NCBI GenBank assembly: GCA_944389545.1
Contig: CALXMT010000005.1
Span: forward strand, 1 to 64,000
DNA: 64,000 bases
Reading direction: 5' to 3'
Source: an uncultured Kiritimatiellota bacterium
Lineage (GTDB): Bacteria; Verrucomicrobiota; Kiritimatiellia; RFP12; DVOR01
Below the pieces are notes generated by a model that had not been told where the DNA came from, did no database searches, and saw only the letters and a list, made by a program, of their open reading frames with translations. This document shows, piece after piece, positions 23,238-43,415 of this stretch. Numbering within the stretch: position 1 is the first letter of the stretch; every line of letters starts with the position of its first letter. The translations under genes were made by a program, and so were the position numbers.

Positions 23238-23335
23238 GGCTAGACGGCAGTGTCCGGGAAAAAGAAAGGAACCGCAAAGGTATGGGCACTCCATCGGTGC
23301 GCCCATGTCGTCGTGGAAAACGAAGGAGCTTGGGC
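23238..23335. repeat. hybrid of two inverted-repeat families
   Basis: CAGTGTCCGGGAAAAAGAAAGG is the end of the TGTCCGGGG family, but the middle (GGGCACTCCATCGGTGCGCCC) and the end GTCGTGGAAAACGAAGG belong to the CACGAAG family. Confidence 0.65.
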
Positions 23336-27435: not shown

Positions 27436-27704
27436 ATATTGCCCGGGGAAAATGGCCGCAAAGACGCAACTCTTGCAGGAAAGCTGGGGCGCTAACGCCG
27501 GGCGCACAGTTGTGCGCCCTCCCGCGCCCCACTTTCCTGCGCCCAAAGACTTGAAAGAGGGCCCAAGCGCGAAGACGATGGGCGGGAGGGAGCGATCAGC
27601 GGGCGTTTAGCCCGCAAAGCGACCGGCGTTAGCCCATCTGGCTTCGCGCGCACTGGCGTCTTCGCGGGAAAAGAGCCCCACCGATTTTCCCGGACAATAT
27701 TGCC
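27436..27704. repeat. nested inverted-repeat element, full copy
   Basis: About 269 bp between ATATTGCCCGGGGAAAATGG and its inverse ATTTTCCCGGACAATATTG. Inside are two cassettes, each with its own inverted ends: GCAGGAAAG...CTTTCCTGC and GCGCGAAGAC...GGCTTCGCGCGC. No reading frame of note, so non-autonomous. It lies between pyrC and the VWA terminator. Confidence 0.88.
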
Positions 27705-29903: not shown

Positions 29904-31664
29904 TTACTTCTCCGTCTCCTTGCGGAGCGCCGCCTCGGCCTTGTCGAGATAGGGCGTGAGCACGCGCGACGACAGGACGATGCCCTCGGAGAAGGGCTTG
30001 GCCGCGTGACGCTCGGAGAGCACACGCTGTTGGTCGCGCCAGGCGCGGATGGCCGCGAGCGCGACCGCCGGAGGCACCTGTCCGCCGAGCGCCTGCGTGG
30101 TCATGGCCCCGGCATTGCCGAAGGCCATCATGCCATCGGCCCAATCATAGACCTCCTCCACAAAGAGCTTATTCTTGCAGTTGGCAATGATGTCGATGCC
30201 GGCGAAGGAGATACGGCGGAACTCATCCGTCAGCGCCGCCACGTCGGCCGCATCGGGCGTCTCTTCCGCCTCAACCGCCTCCAAGACACGCGCGACGACG
30301 GGCGCGATGGCGACGGATTCCTCGCGATTGAAGCCCTCGGCCTTGGGACCCTGGCTGGAATTGTGGTCGGCCAACGTCTGCACAGACGCCGCCACCTCGG
30401 GGAAGAGTCGCTTGATACTGTCGCGCCACGCCTGCTCCGAGTCGAAGTCGTCCGGATTCCACGTGTAGGCGGCCACACCGAAGAGCGGCACCTTCGAGGC
30501 CTCGGGCTTGTCCATCGGATTGGAGACGAACCCGCCGTAGCGCGGTCCGTTGGTGGGGTCATTGCCATAGCACCGGCCCATCAAGAGATGCGGCTTGCAG
30601 TAGTCGCAGACCGGCCAGTTCCACCAGATGAAGGGTTTGCGGCGGATGCGCGGGGAGACGTGCTCCACCGTCCCCTGCGTGATGTCGGCGCACACCGCGT
30701 CGCCCGTCCACATCACCTGAATGTCCGGGTCCAACCCCACGCCGAGCTTCTCCAGATAGTTGCTCTTGGCCCAGGCCGCCGCGTAATCCGTGGGGCACAT
30801 GATGAGCGGCGCCACGTCGCCCTTCTTGCGGACGAACTCACGGTTGAGCGTATTCAGCAACGCAATCTGCTTCTCCGCGCGCGTCCCCTCGCCGCTGATG
30901 TCGTCGAAGAAGACGGCGAAGGCCCGCACACCCAGCGCGTACATCAACTCGAACTTCGCCAAGCAAGCCTTGATGTCGCTGTCGTCCTTCCAATGAATGT
31001 CCTTGCCGGGATGGACCGCCCACACGAAGTTGACCTTGTTCGCGTGCGCCACGCGTGCCAGTTCGGCGATTTCCTTCCCCTTCGCCTCGGGATAAGGGTC
31101 GCGCCATTTCGGGCCGAACCCATGATAGGGGTCGTCCTTAGGTCCGTAGATATAGGTGTTCATCTTCTGCTCGCCCATGAAGGCGAACATCCGCTTGCGC
31201 GCCTCGAAGCTCCACGGCTGCCCATAGAACCCCTCCACCACGCCGCGGAAGGGCACATCGGGCCAGTCCTTGATGGTCACGCCGTGGCAGTCCTCTGCCG
31301 CGAGTACCTGCCGCAACGTCTGCACGCCATAGAAGAAGCCCCGCCCATCCGCGGCCGCCAGGTCCGCACCGTCCGCGTCCACCGTCAGCGTGTAACCTTC
31401 CTTCGGCAGACTCGCGTCCTCCTTCCAGGTCACCGTGAAGGTGGCCGTAGGCTCAATCTTGAAGGTCGCCGCGAGCGCCGCCTGCGCCTCCGCGTCAAAC
31501 CCGTCCGCCGGGACAATCGCGATGGTCTTCGGGCGCGCAAACGTCCCGCCATCCACCGAGACCTCCTGCGGCGTCGGCCACACGCACAGCGTCTCTGGCA
31601 AGGCCTCTGCCCAAACCGTCGTCCCCGCGCAAATCGCGGCCACCGCAATGCACAAACCTCTCAT
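29904..31664 (-). CDS. GH84-family beta-N-acetylglucosaminidase, secreted
   Basis: The 586-residue protein has a signal peptide (1-19), an N-terminal GH20b/GH84-type domain (about 25-130, GRGFFYGVQTLRQVL) and the GH84 catalytic barrel: RGVVEGFYGQPWSFEARKRM (140-159) and the catalytic aspartate pair Asp254-Asp255 in FFDDISGEG. GH84 enzymes remove beta-linked GlcNAc (O-GlcNAcase or hyaluronidase-type) by substrate-assisted catalysis. A host- or mucin-glycan role is an inference. Promoter TGGTATGCT lies at 31694-31702. Confidence 0.92.
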   Translation of the reverse strand: MRGLCIAVAAICAGTTVWAEALPETLCVWPTPQEVSVDGGTFARPKTIAIVPADGFDAEAQAALAATFKIEPTATFTVTWKEDASLPKEGYTLTVDADGADLAAADGRGFFYGVQTLRQVLAAEDCHGVTIKDWPDVPFRGVVEGFYGQPWSFEARKRMFAFMGEQKMNTYIYGPKDDPYHGFGPKWRDPYPEAKGKEIAELARVAHANKVNFVWAVHPGKDIHWKDDSDIKACLAKFELMYALGVRAFAVFFDDISGEGTRAEKQIALLNTLNREFVRKKGDVAPLIMCPTDYAAAWAKSNYLEKLGVGLDPDIQVMWTGDAVCADITQGTVEHVSPRIRRKPFIWWNWPVCDYCKPHLLMGRCYGNDPTNGPRYGGFVSNPMDKPEASKVPLFGVAAYTWNPDDFDSEQAWRDSIKRLFPEVAASVQTLADHNSSQGPKAEGFNREESVAIAPVVARVLEAVEAEETPDAADVAALTDEFRRISFAGIDIIANCKNKLFVEEVYDWADGMMAFGNAGAMTTQALGGQVPPAVALAAIRAWRDQQRVLSERHAAKPFSEGIVLSSRVLTPYLDKAEAALRKETEK

Positions 31665-31870: not shown

Positions 31871-33280
31871 TTAGGCCATCGATTCCGCCTGACGCGCGCT
31901 TGCCGCGCGTTCTGTTTTCCGTTCTCCGTTCTCTGTTCTCCGGGGCGGCGTCAGCCGTCCCTTCCGCAGGAAGTCCGCGAGCGCCCAGAGCAGAAGCGGC
32001 ACCACCGCCGCCTCCGCCACCGCAAAGGCCCACCAGATGGACCACGGGCCGAAACACGCCTGCAACACCAGCCCGGCCGGCAACAACAGCGCGCCGCTCC
32101 GCAGACACGCGAAGAAGGTTCCGCGCGCGGGGCGTCCCACCGCCGGCAACTGCAACGTCGCAATCTGCGCCATGCCCATCAGCGGCAGGCAGAAGAGCGC
32201 CGTTGCCAACGCCCCCGCCGCATGGGAGGGCAGTGCCGCCACTTCCGCCGCCGGCAGGAAGGCCCGCAGGCAAAGCGTCGGCGCCGTTGCCGCAACGATC
32301 AACGCCACCACGCCAAACCCTGCCGCCGTCCCCAGCGCCAACCGCAGGATTTTGCGCACACGTGTCCGCGCCCCCGCCGCCGCGTTCGCCGCCGTCAGCG
32401 GGTGTGCCGCCTGGGCCACGCCGTTGAAGACCGCCGTCATCGTCAGCAGGTAGTTCGCCACCACGCCGTAGATCGCCAGCCCCGGTTCACCAAGCGCGCC
32501 CAACGCCAGACGGTTGAAGAGCATCACCGTCACGCTTCCCGTCAATTCCTGCAGGAAGTCCCCGCCGCCGAACCACGCCACCTGCGGCAAGAGCCGCCAA
32601 TCGGGCCGTTCCCAACGCAACGCCCGCGCCGGTGACCGCAGGTGCGTCAGCAGAATAACCGTCGTCACCCCCGCGCCGCACGTCGTCGCCAGGCCCGCAC
32701 CGAAGAGCCCCATGTTCAGCGGATACATGAAGACCCAGTCCAGCACGATGTTCGTGATGCCACCCGCGAGCACCGCCGTCATTGCCCGACGCGGCGCATG
32801 GTCATGCCGTAGGAACGGCGCCAGCAACAGCGTCGCCACGAAGAGCGGGCAACCCGCCGCGATCGGCAGGCCATAACTCACCGCCGCCTCCAGGAACGGT
32901 CCCTCGCCCGCGCCCAGCACGTGCGCCACAAGCGGTCGCAGGAAGACCAGGCAGAGCGTCGTGGCCACGGCCGCGAAGATCGCCGCCGCGCACACCGCCA
33001 CCGCGAAGCAGCGGCGCGCCCCGTGCACGTCCCCCACGCTCAGCCGCCGCGTGAAGCAGATGCCTCCGCCGTTCCCCAACAGCGACCCCACCGCGAAGAA
33101 GGCGAACTCCAGCGGCACAATCAAGTTCAACGCCGCCACCCCCTCCGCGCCCAGGCGATAGCCCACCATCACCGTGTCCGCGAAGAGATAAATGGCAGTG
33201 ACCAACGTCGCGCACACCGTCGGCAAGAGATAACGCGCGAACAAACGCCCAACGGGCGCTTCCAAAAGCAAACGATTCAT
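31871..33280 (-). CDS. MATE-family efflux transporter
   Basis: The 469-residue protein has about 12 membrane helices in two MatE halves (LPTVCATLVTAIYLFADTVM; WFGGGDFLQELTGSVTVMLF). MATE proteins export cationic drugs or metabolites with Na+ or H+. GGAGG sits 7 nt before the chosen ATG. A 370-nt structured leader and a 35-codon small frame precede it. The last 22 or so residues (from RTENGER) are encoded by a dispersed GGAGAAC repeat array, so the original C-terminus has been replaced or extended by repeat DNA. Confidence 0.88.
   Translation of the reverse strand: MNRLLLEAPVGRLFARYLLPTVCATLVTAIYLFADTVMVGYRLGAEGVAALNLIVPLEFAFFAVGSLLGNGGGICFTRRLSVGDVHGARRCFAVAVCAAAIFAAVATTLCLVFLRPLVAHVLGAGEGPFLEAAVSYGLPIAAGCPLFVATLLLAPFLRHDHAPRRAMTAVLAGGITNIVLDWVFMYPLNMGLFGAGLATTCGAGVTTVILLTHLRSPARALRWERPDWRLLPQVAWFGGGDFLQELTGSVTVMLFNRLALGALGEPGLAIYGVVANYLLTMTAVFNGVAQAAHPLTAANAAAGARTRVRKILRLALGTAAGFGVVALIVAATAPTLCLRAFLPAAEVAALPSHAAGALATALFCLPLMGMAQIATLQLPAVGRPARGTFFACLRSGALLLPAGLVLQACFGPWSIWWAFAVAEAAVVPLLLWALADFLRKGRLTPPRRTENGERKTERAASARQAESMA
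31892..31961. repeat. GTTCTCC heptamer array inside the MATE 3' end
   Basis: CGCGCGCTTGCCGCGCG, then GTTCTGT TTTCC GTTCTCC GTTCTCT GTTCTCC, then GGGGCGGCGTCAGCC. On the minus strand it encodes the MATE C-terminal tail. Confidence 0.85.
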
Positions 33281-33384
33281 GGCAAAATCCTCCGAAAGAT
33301 GACTGAACGCAATCCAACCGCCGCCGATCACCCCATCAAACAAGGGGCAAACCGCGGCGCTGTCCTCGGGCAAAAGCCCGGCGC

Positions 33385-33492
33385 TCAGTTCAAATCAGAG
33401 GGGGCGGGATGGCAGTCCCCCATCCCGATTGCCGTCGTCATCCCCGCCAGCGCGGGGCAGGAGCGTCGGCAAAAACGGAACTTCGCGTTCAT
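33385..33492 (-). CDS. candidate leader peptide of MATE mRNA
   Basis: A 35-codon frame begins with ATG at 33492, has AAAGGAG 6 nt upstream and ends at TGA 33385, about 105 nt before the MATE start. The peptide is Cys/Pro/Met-rich and has no known domain. It lies after a chain of hairpins in the 5' leader, and a CGGGCTTTTGCCCG hairpin follows its stop. Either a regulatory upstream peptide or a chance frame with a good ribosome site. Confidence 0.4.
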   Translation of the reverse strand: MNAKFRFCRRSCPALAGMTTAIGMGDCHPAPSDLN

Positions 33493-33654
33493 GTCTAACT
33501 CCTTTCTCGCACGGTCTTTCAGAGACCGACCTCAGGTCGCAGCCCGCGCACGGCGAACCCACGGCCCACTACTGGCTTCCCGGACACGCCTCTACGACCA
33601 AGGCGCAACGCTCACATCGCACCATCTGTCCGGCATGGGCACCGCCCATGTTTC
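33493..33654 (-). ncRNA. candidate structured 5' leader RNA of MATE gene
   Basis: The expected transcript from about 33655 folds by eye into consecutive helices: a 7-bp hairpin (33634-33640 with 33644-33650), a 7-bp closing stem (33580-33586 with 33627-33633) enclosing a 9-bp hairpin (33602-33610 with 33615-33623), then two hairpins (33527-33539 and 33513-33527). It ends at the ribosome site of a 35-codon frame. I do not recognise a known riboswitch class. Confidence 0.5.
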
Positions 33655-33670
33655 GCTATAAATTATAGCA
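33655..33670 (-). promoter_or_regulatory. MATE promoter with palindromic operator over the -10
   Basis: Minus-strand TGCTATAAT is a perfect extended -10 and is embedded in a 15-bp perfect palindrome, GCTATAAATTATAGC (33655-33669). A repressor dimer bound there would block RNA polymerase. The MATE start codon is about 375 nt downstream. Confidence 0.6.
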
Positions 33671-33748
33671 AAACGCCTCCTCGTTGCAAAGCACATTCTT
33701 AGACGCTTATAACGGTCTTCGCGAAAACCTCTACGGCTAGGATTCAGT

Positions 33749-34105
33749 AGTGTCCGGGAAAATTGGGACCGCAAAGACGCAAGGGAGCGCGAACCGCTTC
33801 GGGCTCCATCGGTCGCTCTGCGGCTTCGCCGCTGACCGCGACCGCCGCCCTCCGTTTCGCGCTTTATCGCTTTCTCGGAAACACCATCCGTCGCCCCGCG
33901 GGGGGGGGGGCCGTTCTCCGTGGCTATGGAAGGTTTGACCCTTTGGGCCTGCACGTTCTGCTTTCCGTTCTCCGGGGCGGCGTCAGCAGCCCCTTTGGCG
34001 CGATACGTGGAAATCCCAAGGGCGGCGCGACCGAAGGGAGCGATGGAGCCCGTAGGGTTTCCACGCAAGTCCGTCTTCGCGGAAAAACTTCCCCGAGCTA
34101 TATTG
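33749..34105. repeat. nested inverted-repeat element interrupted by heptamer array
   Basis: Ends are AGTGTCCGGGAAAATTGGG and CTTCCCCGAGCTATATTGG. The two cassettes are split by a GTTCTCC-type array (33891-33993) that includes an 11-G run. The right end stops 25 bp before the rluB -10. Confidence 0.82.
33891..33993. repeat. GTTCTCC heptamer element inserted in an inverted-repeat element
   Basis: CGCCCCGCGGGG with an extended G-run, GTTCTCC, unrelated 45 bp, GTTCTGC TTTCC GTTCTCC, then GGGGCGGCGTCAGCAGCCCC. Confidence 0.75.
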
Positions 34106-41152: not shown

Positions 41153-41982
41153 ATAGAGGAAGTGAGCCACTTGGGCAGACGGCGCTGAAGAGTGGTCGAG
41201 ACGAGACGTTCGAGGCGGGGCGGGTCGATGGCGAAGTCGCCCGTGAAAAGGTCACGCTCCATCACCACACAATCACCCGCCGGCAACTCAACGTCAGGCT
41301 CAAGAATCCCACGCTGCGCAACTTGGCTCTGCCACCGCGCAGTCGGCAGACGCAGACAACAGTGTGCCGGGAAAGGTTGTACCTCATTCAACGCGATGTC
41401 AACGTAGAGATAGCGCCGCTCGACGCCGTCGCGCCGGATAATGAGCGCGCCGTTGTCGTACCCGATGCGGAGCCGCGCCTTACCCATGGTTTGAAGCAGG
41501 GCGAAATACGCGTCATCCGGGTTCTCCCCGGGCAAGACCGCGCGAATGAAGCACCAATGCGCAGGCACACGAACTTCACCGATTTTCCCGGCGGCCACGC
41601 CCTCGCCTTGGCGTTGCAGGGTTTGCACGGATTGAACCTCCCGCAGCAGCGCACGGGCATGGGCGATCGTGGCACGAAGGCTCTCGATCGCGCCGCCGAG
41701 AAGACGGTCATAGCGGATAACGCCCGCGCCGGTGCCCCCCTGAAGCGCGGCGAACGCCTCCAGCGAGACCCCCGCCCGAACGCACAGTTGGATGGCCTCG
41801 ACAATGCGCAACTGCGACAACGAATAGTGGCGATACCCGGTCCTATGGTCGACCCGCGCAGGCTTGAGAATCCCAAGTTTCTCGTAGTATAGCAACGAGT
41901 TGACGTGGACACCGGTGAGCTTGGAGAAGTCCCCGATGGTGAAAGTCCGAGCCATTGCCGATTTTTTACTTGAGTCCGCCAT
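41131..41982 (-). CDS. MerR-family regulator with GyrI-like effector domain
   Basis: The 283-residue protein has a MerR winged helix (TFTIGDFSKLTGVHVNSLLYYEKLGILKP), a linker helix (about 90-135) and a C-terminal BmrR/GyrI-like domain (about 145-283) that usually binds hydrophobic cations. It is divergent from a MATE exporter 53 bp away and is surely its regulator. The ATG at 41982 sits about 2 nt from the predicted start of transcription and inside the operator; ATG 41955 (MARTFT) is an alternative without a ribosome site. Confidence 0.88.
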   Translation of the reverse strand: MADSSKKSAMARTFTIGDFSKLTGVHVNSLLYYEKLGILKPARVDHRTGYRHYSLSQLRIVEAIQLCVRAGVSLEAFAALQGGTGAGVIRYDRLLGGAIESLRATIAHARALLREVQSVQTLQRQGEGVAAGKIGEVRVPAHWCFIRAVLPGENPDDAYFALLQTMGKARLRIGYDNGALIIRRDGVERRYLYVDIALNEVQPFPAHCCLRLPTARWQSQVAQRGILEPDVELPAGDCVVMERDLFTGDFAIDPPRLERLVSTTLQRRLPKWLTSSISHEYTK

Positions 41983-42035: not shown

Positions 42036-43415
42036 ATGAGAAGACAACGTCCACATCGCTCTGCAGACCCCTTGCTGTCCGGTCCCTTGCGCAAACATTG
42101 GCGCACCTATCTGGTTCCTGCACTCGGTGGTGCGGCGGTGACCTCCATCTACAGTATCGTTGACACCATCGCCATCGGTTACGGCGTGGGTCCCGCCGGT
42201 GCGGCGGCGGCCGCCGTTCTCGTCCCGAGCTTCGGCCTGATGGCCTTTCTCGGCACCCTCCTCGGCATGGGCGGCGCCATTCTCCTGGCCACGGCCCGCG
42301 GACGCGGCGACCGTCGCGAGGGCGACGCCTGGTTCACGCTCTCCTTCCTGCTCTGCGTAATCGTCGGCGCCATTGTCGCCGCCTCCGTTCTGCTCGCGGG
42401 GGATTCCTTCTGGCGACTCTGCGGCGCGGACGACTCGATTGTTCGGTTGGCCGATGAATACGGCTTCTGGGTCGTGCTCACGTGGCCGGGCGCCATGCTC
42501 TCGCTGGCAATGGCCTGCCTGGTCCGTAACGATGGCGCTCCGGGCTACGCGCTGATGGCCATCATCGCCGGCGGCGTGCTCAACATCATCGGCGACTGGC
42601 TCTTGGTCTTCCCCTTCAAGATCGGCACGGGTATGGCCGGCGCCGGCATCGCCACCGCCGCGGGATGTGCCCTGCAGACCATTCTGCTTGTGGCCTATCT
42701 CTTCAAGCGGCGTTGTACCTTGCGTTTCGCCCCGCCGAGTCTCTGGCCGCGCCGGGCCATCCGCCGACTCTGCGCCGTGGGGCTTGCGCCGGGTCTCCCC
42801 AACGCCGCCGTCGCGGTCGTCGTCACCCTCGCCAACCACCAGGCCATGCGCCATGGCGGTGTGGCGGCGCTCTCCATCCTCGGCATCATGCTCTCGCTCT
42901 CCGCACTCTACCAACAGCTCTTCAACGGTGTGGCCCAGGCCCTCCAACCCATTGTCTCGGTGAACTACGGCGCGGGCGGACGAGCCCGTATTCGCCGTTC
43001 CTTCTGGATGGGGGCGCGCATGGCCTTCGCCCTAGGGCTGGCCTGTTCGCTCGTCAGTCTGATTTTCCCGGTCGGCACGCTTCGTCTCTTCATGAACCCG
43101 ACCCCCGAGGTCATCGCGTTGGCGCCGACCCTCGTGCGCGGCATTGCGACCTCCTTCCTGCCAATGGCCCTCTGCATCCTGGCGGCAGGCTACCTGCAAG
43201 CCCTCCTGCGCACCCTGCCGGCGGCGACAGTCGCCTTGTTGCGCAGCATCGGCCTCAGCGCGGTGCTCCTGCTTTGCCTCCCGCCCTTCTTGGGCCTCGA
43301 TGGACTCTGGTTGGCGCTCTCCGCAACGGAATGGCTCACCTTGATTCTGGCTCTGGTGGCCCTCTTCCGCCTCTGGGGCCGCGAAGTCCCGCAAGAGTCT
43401 ACCCCTCTTGCCTGA
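42036..43415 (+). CDS. MATE-family efflux transporter under MerR control
   Basis: The 459-residue protein has about 12 membrane helices in two homologous halves (TYLVPALGGAAVTSIYSIVD; LCAVGLAPGLPNAAVAVVVT). AAGGAAGA lies 4-5 nt before the ATG. Its promoter has the stretched 19-bp spacer of MerR-activated genes. The substrate is unknown; the GyrI-like domain of the regulator suggests amphipathic or aromatic drugs. A strong terminator follows at 43437-43468. Confidence 0.92.
   Translation: MRRQRPHRSADPLLSGPLRKHWRTYLVPALGGAAVTSIYSIVDTIAIGYGVGPAGAAAAAVLVPSFGLMAFLGTLLGMGGAILLATARGRGDRREGDAWFTLSFLLCVIVGAIVAASVLLAGDSFWRLCGADDSIVRLADEYGFWVVLTWPGAMLSLAMACLVRNDGAPGYALMAIIAGGVLNIIGDWLLVFPFKIGTGMAGAGIATAAGCALQTILLVAYLFKRRCTLRFAPPSLWPRRAIRRLCAVGLAPGLPNAAVAVVVTLANHQAMRHGGVAALSILGIMLSLSALYQQLFNGVAQALQPIVSVNYGAGGRARIRRSFWMGARMAFALGLACSLVSLIFPVGTLRLFMNPTPEVIALAPTLVRGIATSFLPMALCILAAGYLQALLRTLPAATVALLRSIGLSAVLLLCLPPFLGLDGLWLALSATEWLTLILALVALFRLWGREVPQESTPLA

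Follow-up and report, generated by a model that had tools for sequence, protein, structure and literature searches.

A gene for a MATE family exporter in the genus Candidatus Spyradenecus is preceded by a small frame of 34–35 codons which, judged by comparison among relatives, is a real and selected coding sequence linked to the exporter gene. The best explanation of the pair, to which we give a probability of about 0.6, is that the frame encodes the peptide of a translational attenuator, perhaps an arrest peptide, that would control the exporter; we infer the stalling, the signal behind it and what the pump exports. A single transcript would carry the leader peptide gene and then the MATE gene, and in the free mRNA the Shine–Dalgarno (SD) sequence of the MATE gene is predicted to be paired with the last conserved codons of the peptide, Pro-Ser-Asp, so that the exporter would be poorly translated. 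A signal, which may be a drug, a metal, a metabolite or the pump's own substrate, would cause the ribosome to stall near the C-terminal H-P-A-P-S-D, and the stalled ribosome would cover the last codons, free the MATE SD and allow the exporter to be made. We take the support for the peptide half of this model, drawn from patterns of conservation, to be strong, and that for the RNA half, drawn from predicted folds, to be moderate.

Being short, absent from annotations and limited to particular lineages, leader peptides that sense small molecules are difficult to detect. The small frame described here was found by comparison alone and names codons for testing; it would represent a leader-peptide family with no Pfam or NCBIfam match, placed ahead of a MATE gene, with a putative mechanism. 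If the explanation is true, a MATE pump of unknown substrate would be linked to a signal sensed by the ribosome, which would give a handle on what is exported. If the peptide is instead itself exported, the locus would hold a peptide–MATE pair without a recognised maturase, which would also be unusual.

The exporter gene and its surroundings

The window analysed here is a stretch of 64,000 nt from a genome of 2.53 Mb in 61 contigs (labelled G000). It belongs to the genus Candidatus Spyradenecus, whose records here are all metagenome-assembled; its relatives in the genus include Candidatus Spyradenecus faecavium. The exporter (Table 1) has MatE as its sole Pfam match, and the closest NCBIfam models are those of multidrug MATEs, every one of which scores below its cut-off. 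The extended −10 that a first-pass annotation had placed far upstream of the MATE ATG is confirmed: TGCTATAAT, together with its −35-like hexamer, matches at 10 of 12 hexamer positions, and no other strong promoter match lies upstream of the gene. Between 31600 and 34900 three promoter-like sites are listed against 0.3 expected, two of the three being this same site. A similar −35/−10 pair lies 5′ of the small frame in nine relatives and the extended TG is found in nine of the ten leaders, the −10 boxes of the relatives having been picked by eye. Control of the exporter by an intrinsic terminator was rejected, as no terminator-like site is listed anywhere in the leader.

Several further features of the neighbourhood were recorded. 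Just downstream of the MATE gene lies a NAGidase gene (window 29904–31664; Pfam E 1e-116) for a GH84-type β-N-acetylglucosaminidase, which among the loci of the relatives is present at this place in G003 only. The C-terminus of the exporter (residues ~437–467, window ~31874–31972) has ~60–80% identity to many places in the G000 and G003 genomes, and its match to the orthologue of G003 stops at residue 441; these alignments suggest that the 3′ end of the gene was overrun by a dispersed repeat. A dispersed repeat end, TTTTCCCGGACACTA, lies at 33748–33762, 23248–23262 and 27685–27699 of the window and, if up to one mismatch is allowed, occurs 45 times across the genome, against none for the reversed control, and a 36-nt piece of the dispersed repeat recurs widely across the genome. 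A second, distant MATE (31% identity) is encoded downstream in the window (42072–43403), and on the opposite strand just upstream of it (~41700–41955) is a sequence that reads by eye as MerR-type regulator-like, a neighbour that contrasts with the leader-peptide layout of the first MATE.

Table 1. Position of the exporter gene and of the elements of its leader in the 64,000-nt window
Feature	Position	Strand	Detail
MATE family exporter, 469 aa	31871..33280	−	Pfam MatE E 7.7e-21; ATG 33280
Spacer, 104 nt, small-frame stop to MATE ATG	33281..33384	−	Hairpins, e.g. CGGGC-UUUU-GCCCG 33380–33367
MATE Shine–Dalgarno region UCGGAGG	33289..33295	−	From sequence and folding
Leader peptide gene (small frame), 35 codons and stop	33385..33492	−	MNAKFRFCRRSCPALAGMTTAIGMGDCHPAPSDLN; in 10 of 10 orthologous leaders
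Predicted anti-Shine–Dalgarno CCUCUGA, codons P31-S32-D33	33395..33401	−	Pairing probability 0.98 with MATE SD
Shine–Dalgarno AAAGGAG of small frame	33499..33505	−	6 nt before small-frame ATG
Folded 5′ stretch with the helices of the first-pass annotation	33513..33661	−	G000 and G003 only
Promoter	33662..33690	−	Promoter search; −35-like TTTGCA 33690–33685, extended −10 TGCTATAAT 33670–33662

Selection on the small frame

The AAAGGAG and the 35-codon frame behind it, both pointed out in the first-pass annotation, were recovered, with a gap of 6 nt to the ATG. When the ten orthologous frames are pooled, codons 17–33 have a pN of 0.066 and a pS of 0.530, and codons 13–16 are free to vary (pN 0.521). 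Codons 2–12 have a pN of 0.046 and a pS of 0.304, the latter below that of every 33-codon window of the MATE gene (minimum 0.396), a figure that comes from a small sample of 11 codons. Across codons 1–33 of the ten frames, third positions vary at 25 of 33, first positions at 12 and second positions at 7.

The peptide starts as MNAK(F/I)RFCR(R/C)S(C/D), has three variable residues at positions 14–16, and ends as D(C/S)HPAPSD followed by one or two unconserved residues. H-P-A-P-S-D is invariant in all ten peptides, and 20 of 35 columns are invariant among the nine distinct sequences. Within a total of 34–35 residues, neither the Cys block (C8, C12) nor the P-A-P-S-D block varies in length, and the distance between them is constant; the exceptions are in residue only, in G013, where position 12 is D and position 27 is S. 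The N-terminus, MNAKFRFCRRSC, is by eye short and charged. No match to the peptide was found in Pfam up to E 10 or in NCBIfam, and the selection described above suggests that the frame is translated. A translated intergenic repeat, which the CPALAGMT stretch of the frame resembled, was rejected as its origin because the frame is conserved as coding; the best other match of the leader in its own genome, at E 0.25, also speaks against that idea.

Distribution of the small frame and the exporter gene

The genus sample comprised 17 Candidatus Spyradenecus genomes, the window's own included. An orthologue of the exporter (53–100% identity) is present in ten of them, G000 among these, and the other seven have distant MATEs only, a short fragment, or none. 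The small frame was found at strong score in all ten genomes with the exporter gene and in none of the seven without it. Its ATG lies 202–232 nt 5′ of the MATE ATG in every case and its stop 94–124 nt from the MATE gene, and for the relatives compared the identity of the peptide is higher than that of the exporter. Six genes of the window were used as queries against the loci of the relatives, with flanks of up to 5 kb that are short on the upstream side in G008 and G005. The MATE query matched all nine loci; those for the flanking pseudouridine synthase, the NAGidase and two genes that read by their sequence as macro-domain and vWA-like matched G003 only, and one query had no match. The small frame and the MATE gene remain side by side even in the eight of nine relatives whose tested flanking genes differ.

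Among 161 genomes of the order and 387 of the phylum, strong matches to the small frame (≤7.3e-23) are confined to the same ten genus members. All other matches have an E of 4.6e-4 or worse, those with loci mostly covering part of the peptide, and at the loose threshold of E 1 used for the order most genomes show weak matches. Across 84,980 species genomes there were 35 pattern hits, with nine loci that correspond to those of the nine relatives, and viral contigs gave no match to the small frame.

Structure of the leader RNA

The leader of ~375 nt folds better than its dinucleotide shuffles (z −3.53, with none of 100 shuffles as good). The 7-bp closing stem (33633–33627/33586–33580, CCGGACA/TGTCCGG) and the 9-bp hairpin (33623–33615/33610–33602) that had been described for it exist in the sequence, and folding of the spacer also recovers the hairpins that had been placed between the small frame and the MATE ribosome site. 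The closing stem and the 9-bp hairpin are nevertheless poorly conserved, since the 5′ stretch that holds them occurs in only two of the ten orthologous leaders, those of G000 and G003; the distance from the end of the −10 to the small-frame ATG is 169 and 167 nt in these two and 25–59 nt in the other eight. Between the two leaders the closing stem is identical, the first hairpin has one of its seven pairs broken, and the 9-bp hairpin has three of nine broken and none changed on both sides. This folded 5′ stretch is probably not essential, and its helices were rejected as a functional core for being confined to two leaders. Eleven nucleotides of it (33577–33587) match, inverted, a copy of the dispersed repeat end at 33750–33760, so that derivation of the stretch from a dispersed repeat element is possible.

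Across all ten leaders RNAalifold returned a covariation term of +0.71 kcal/mol, that is, no net covariation, and any change on both sides in only four of 36 predicted pairs. Absence of covariation among homologues, named in the first-pass annotation as evidence against its layout, is essentially what was found for the helices, and the small frame survives it. A match to a known RNA family, named there in the same sense, was not obtained: the Rfam covariance-model scan, in which guanidine-IV was presumably among the models, gave no matches at gathering score in the window, and the leader region showed only HOTTIP_1 and CRISPR-DR28 at chance level, far below that score, so that a known family was rejected for the leader. 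On these comparisons the earlier emphasis on RNA helices was mostly wrong, the hairpins being mostly not conserved.

Predicted masking of the exporter's Shine–Dalgarno

A recurring fold is predicted in which, in most leaders, the SD of the small frame pairs with CUCC(U) in codons 10–12 (CUCCU at 33463–33459 in the window), followed by hairpins inside the frame. Farther 3′, codons P31-S32-D33 supply CCUCUGA or a variant of it as the partner of the MATE SD, with the spacer folded between the two. Pairing probabilities were calculated with a uniform short 5′ end for all leaders and set, for each genome, against 150 synonymous recodings based on its own MATE codon usage and against 60 spacer shuffles (Table 2). 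In six of the ten leaders the predicted probability of pairing between the MATE SD and the last codons is 0.72–1.00, values matched by 0–5% of recodings and 0–7% of spacer shuffles, and in G000 none of the 150 recodings reaches the real value; pairing is weak or absent in G001, G015, G011 and G013. Because the ten genomes are related, the six leaders that show the pairing do not count as independent cases, and the strength of the local anti-SD/SD duplex is not unusual against synonymous alternatives.

Table 2. Predicted pairing of the MATE Shine–Dalgarno with the last codons of the small frame, and the share of randomised leaders that reach the real value
Genome	Pairing probability	Recodings reaching (%)	Spacer shuffles reaching (%)
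G000	0.98	0	0
G003	0.99	1	0
G008	1.00	2	0
G005	0.72	5	7
G001	0.08	24	3
G006	0.93	0	2
G015	0.11	1 (for a real value of just 0.11)	20
G011	0.00	97	90
G007	1.00	0	3
G013	0.20	7	20

With a ribosome masking the RNA at codon 28 or beyond, the probability that the MATE SD is unpaired rises from 0.00–0.02 to 0.16–0.77 in G000, G003, G008, G006 and G007. It stays near 0 in G005 and G001, there is no clear rise in G015 or G011, and G013 gives a mixed picture. In this modelling five leaders show the proposed switch clearly, G005 shows it in part, and the remaining four give no clear sign of it. The first-pass annotation had suggested riboswitch or leader-peptide control of efflux, and of these the leader-peptide half has held up (coding selection, strict pairing with the MATE gene, placement of the frame to control the MATE SD in six of ten leaders), while the riboswitch half has not (5′ helices in two of ten leaders, no net covariation, no Rfam match).

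Alternative explanations

Were the leader a riboswitch or another structured RNA and the frame incidental, its favourable folding score, the low synonymous change in codons 2–12 and the recurrence of hairpins at comparable positions in a number of leaders would find an explanation. The restriction of the 5′ helices to two leaders, the unfavourable covariation term with its few two-sided changes, the lack of an Rfam match at gathering score and the selection of codons 17–33 on their amino acids all point the other way, and we consider such an RNA unlikely enough to give it little weight. Another reading is that the frame encodes a stable small protein acting in trans, for example one that partners or regulates the MATE, with a co-transcription that is only operonic. 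The strong amino-acid conservation extends over most of the length, the N-terminal half included (pN 0.046), and co-occurrence with the MATE gene is strict. Such a protein is nevertheless improbable, given a spacer of 94–124 nt that is not one of tight coupling, a predicted masking of the MATE SD that depends on codon choice in six of ten leaders, and the lack of any domain match in Pfam or NCBIfam.

The peptide may instead be the product that the MATE exports, as a RiPP-like peptide, a bacteriocin or a metal-binding peptide. The exporter has a weak NCBIfam match (32 bits, against a cut-off of 510) to WgkD, the tryglysin-associated MATE, and the conservation of the peptide goes beyond the RNA level. 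By analogy this is a serious rival, since methanobactin operons likewise place a small Cys-containing peptide beside a MATE (PMC3621798). Against it, the MbnB family (PF05114) and the YcaO cyclodehydratase occur in none of the 17 genus genomes, the control search for MbnB being positive in two of 14 named genomes, and SPASM proteins, present in all 17 with or without the peptide, are uncorrelated with it. The tested flanking genes are conserved no further than G003, and the variable part of the peptide lies in its middle and its last one or two residues are free, an unusual arrangement for a leader-plus-core precursor. Export would also leave the pairing of the SD unexplained, and we regard it, for all its seriousness, as improbable. 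The leader-peptide attenuator is the reading we prefer.

Comparison with known systems

Drug-induced leader peptides of the Erm and MsrD type lie ahead of resistance genes and act through an RNA rearrangement upon stalling. The system proposed here resembles them in placing a leader peptide before a gene of resistance type and in its putative rearrangement upon stalling; it differs in that it would control a MATE exporter, through a peptide with no sequence relationship to theirs, and that no inducer is assigned. Control of a MATE gene by a leader peptide did not come up in the open-licence PMC literature, which is weak evidence of absence.

Two systems share the presence of a MATE gene. The guanidine-IV riboswitch (PMC7736828) is a leader that accompanies MATE genes as well as other genes and works by a Rho-independent terminator; an RNA leader before MATE genes is common to both, but the riboswitch has no peptide, and the present leader has neither an Rfam match nor a terminator-like site. 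In methanobactin operons, where MbnM is the proposed methanobactin exporter (PMC3621798), a small Cys-containing peptide gene and a MATE gene occur together as they do here, but the maturase MbnB (DUF692, PF05114) is absent from all 17 genus genomes.

The arrest peptides collected in PMC10987492 are encoded upstream of secA, secDF and yidC, carry an N-terminal signal or membrane segment, and end in RAPP-like motifs, defined as R/Q/H-A/G-P-P and variants such as RAPS and RAPD, both in its motif list; the stalled SecM ribosome opens a stem-loop that masks the secA SD. The small frame is likewise an upstream ORF with a conserved Ala-Pro motif near the C-terminus, here P-A-P-S-D, and its conserved motif is followed by one or two unconserved residues, as in the arrest-peptide leaders of that paper and of PMC9426467. 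It differs from the RAPP-like leaders in encoding a peptide of 34–35 residues whose N-terminus is, by eye, short and charged, and in having P as the first residue of the motif, where most known examples have R, Q or H; the A-P-S that follows is present. By analogy, the C-terminal P-A-P-S-D may be taken as a lead towards arrest-peptide function and not as a test of it.

CruR (DUF2946; PMC9426467) is a copper-responsive upstream ORF of ~145 residues with a CXXC motif, predicted to be exported and acting by Rho-dependent termination, in which the Cys motif is paired with a C-terminal RAPP at near-fixed spacing. The present peptide differs from it in its 35 residues, its CxxxC and its lack of a Pfam (DUF2946) match up to E 10. 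Both are encoded upstream of a transport gene and combine cysteines with a Pro motif near the C-terminus, the two set a fixed distance apart. It is possible, as a tentative extension of the attenuator reading, that these peptides form a new arrest-peptide family of uncultured gut Lentisphaerota, in which an N-terminal FCRRSC, a spacer of fixed length and a C-terminal D-C-H-P-A-P-S-D would sense a metal, the redox state or a small molecule directly and unmask the MATE SD.
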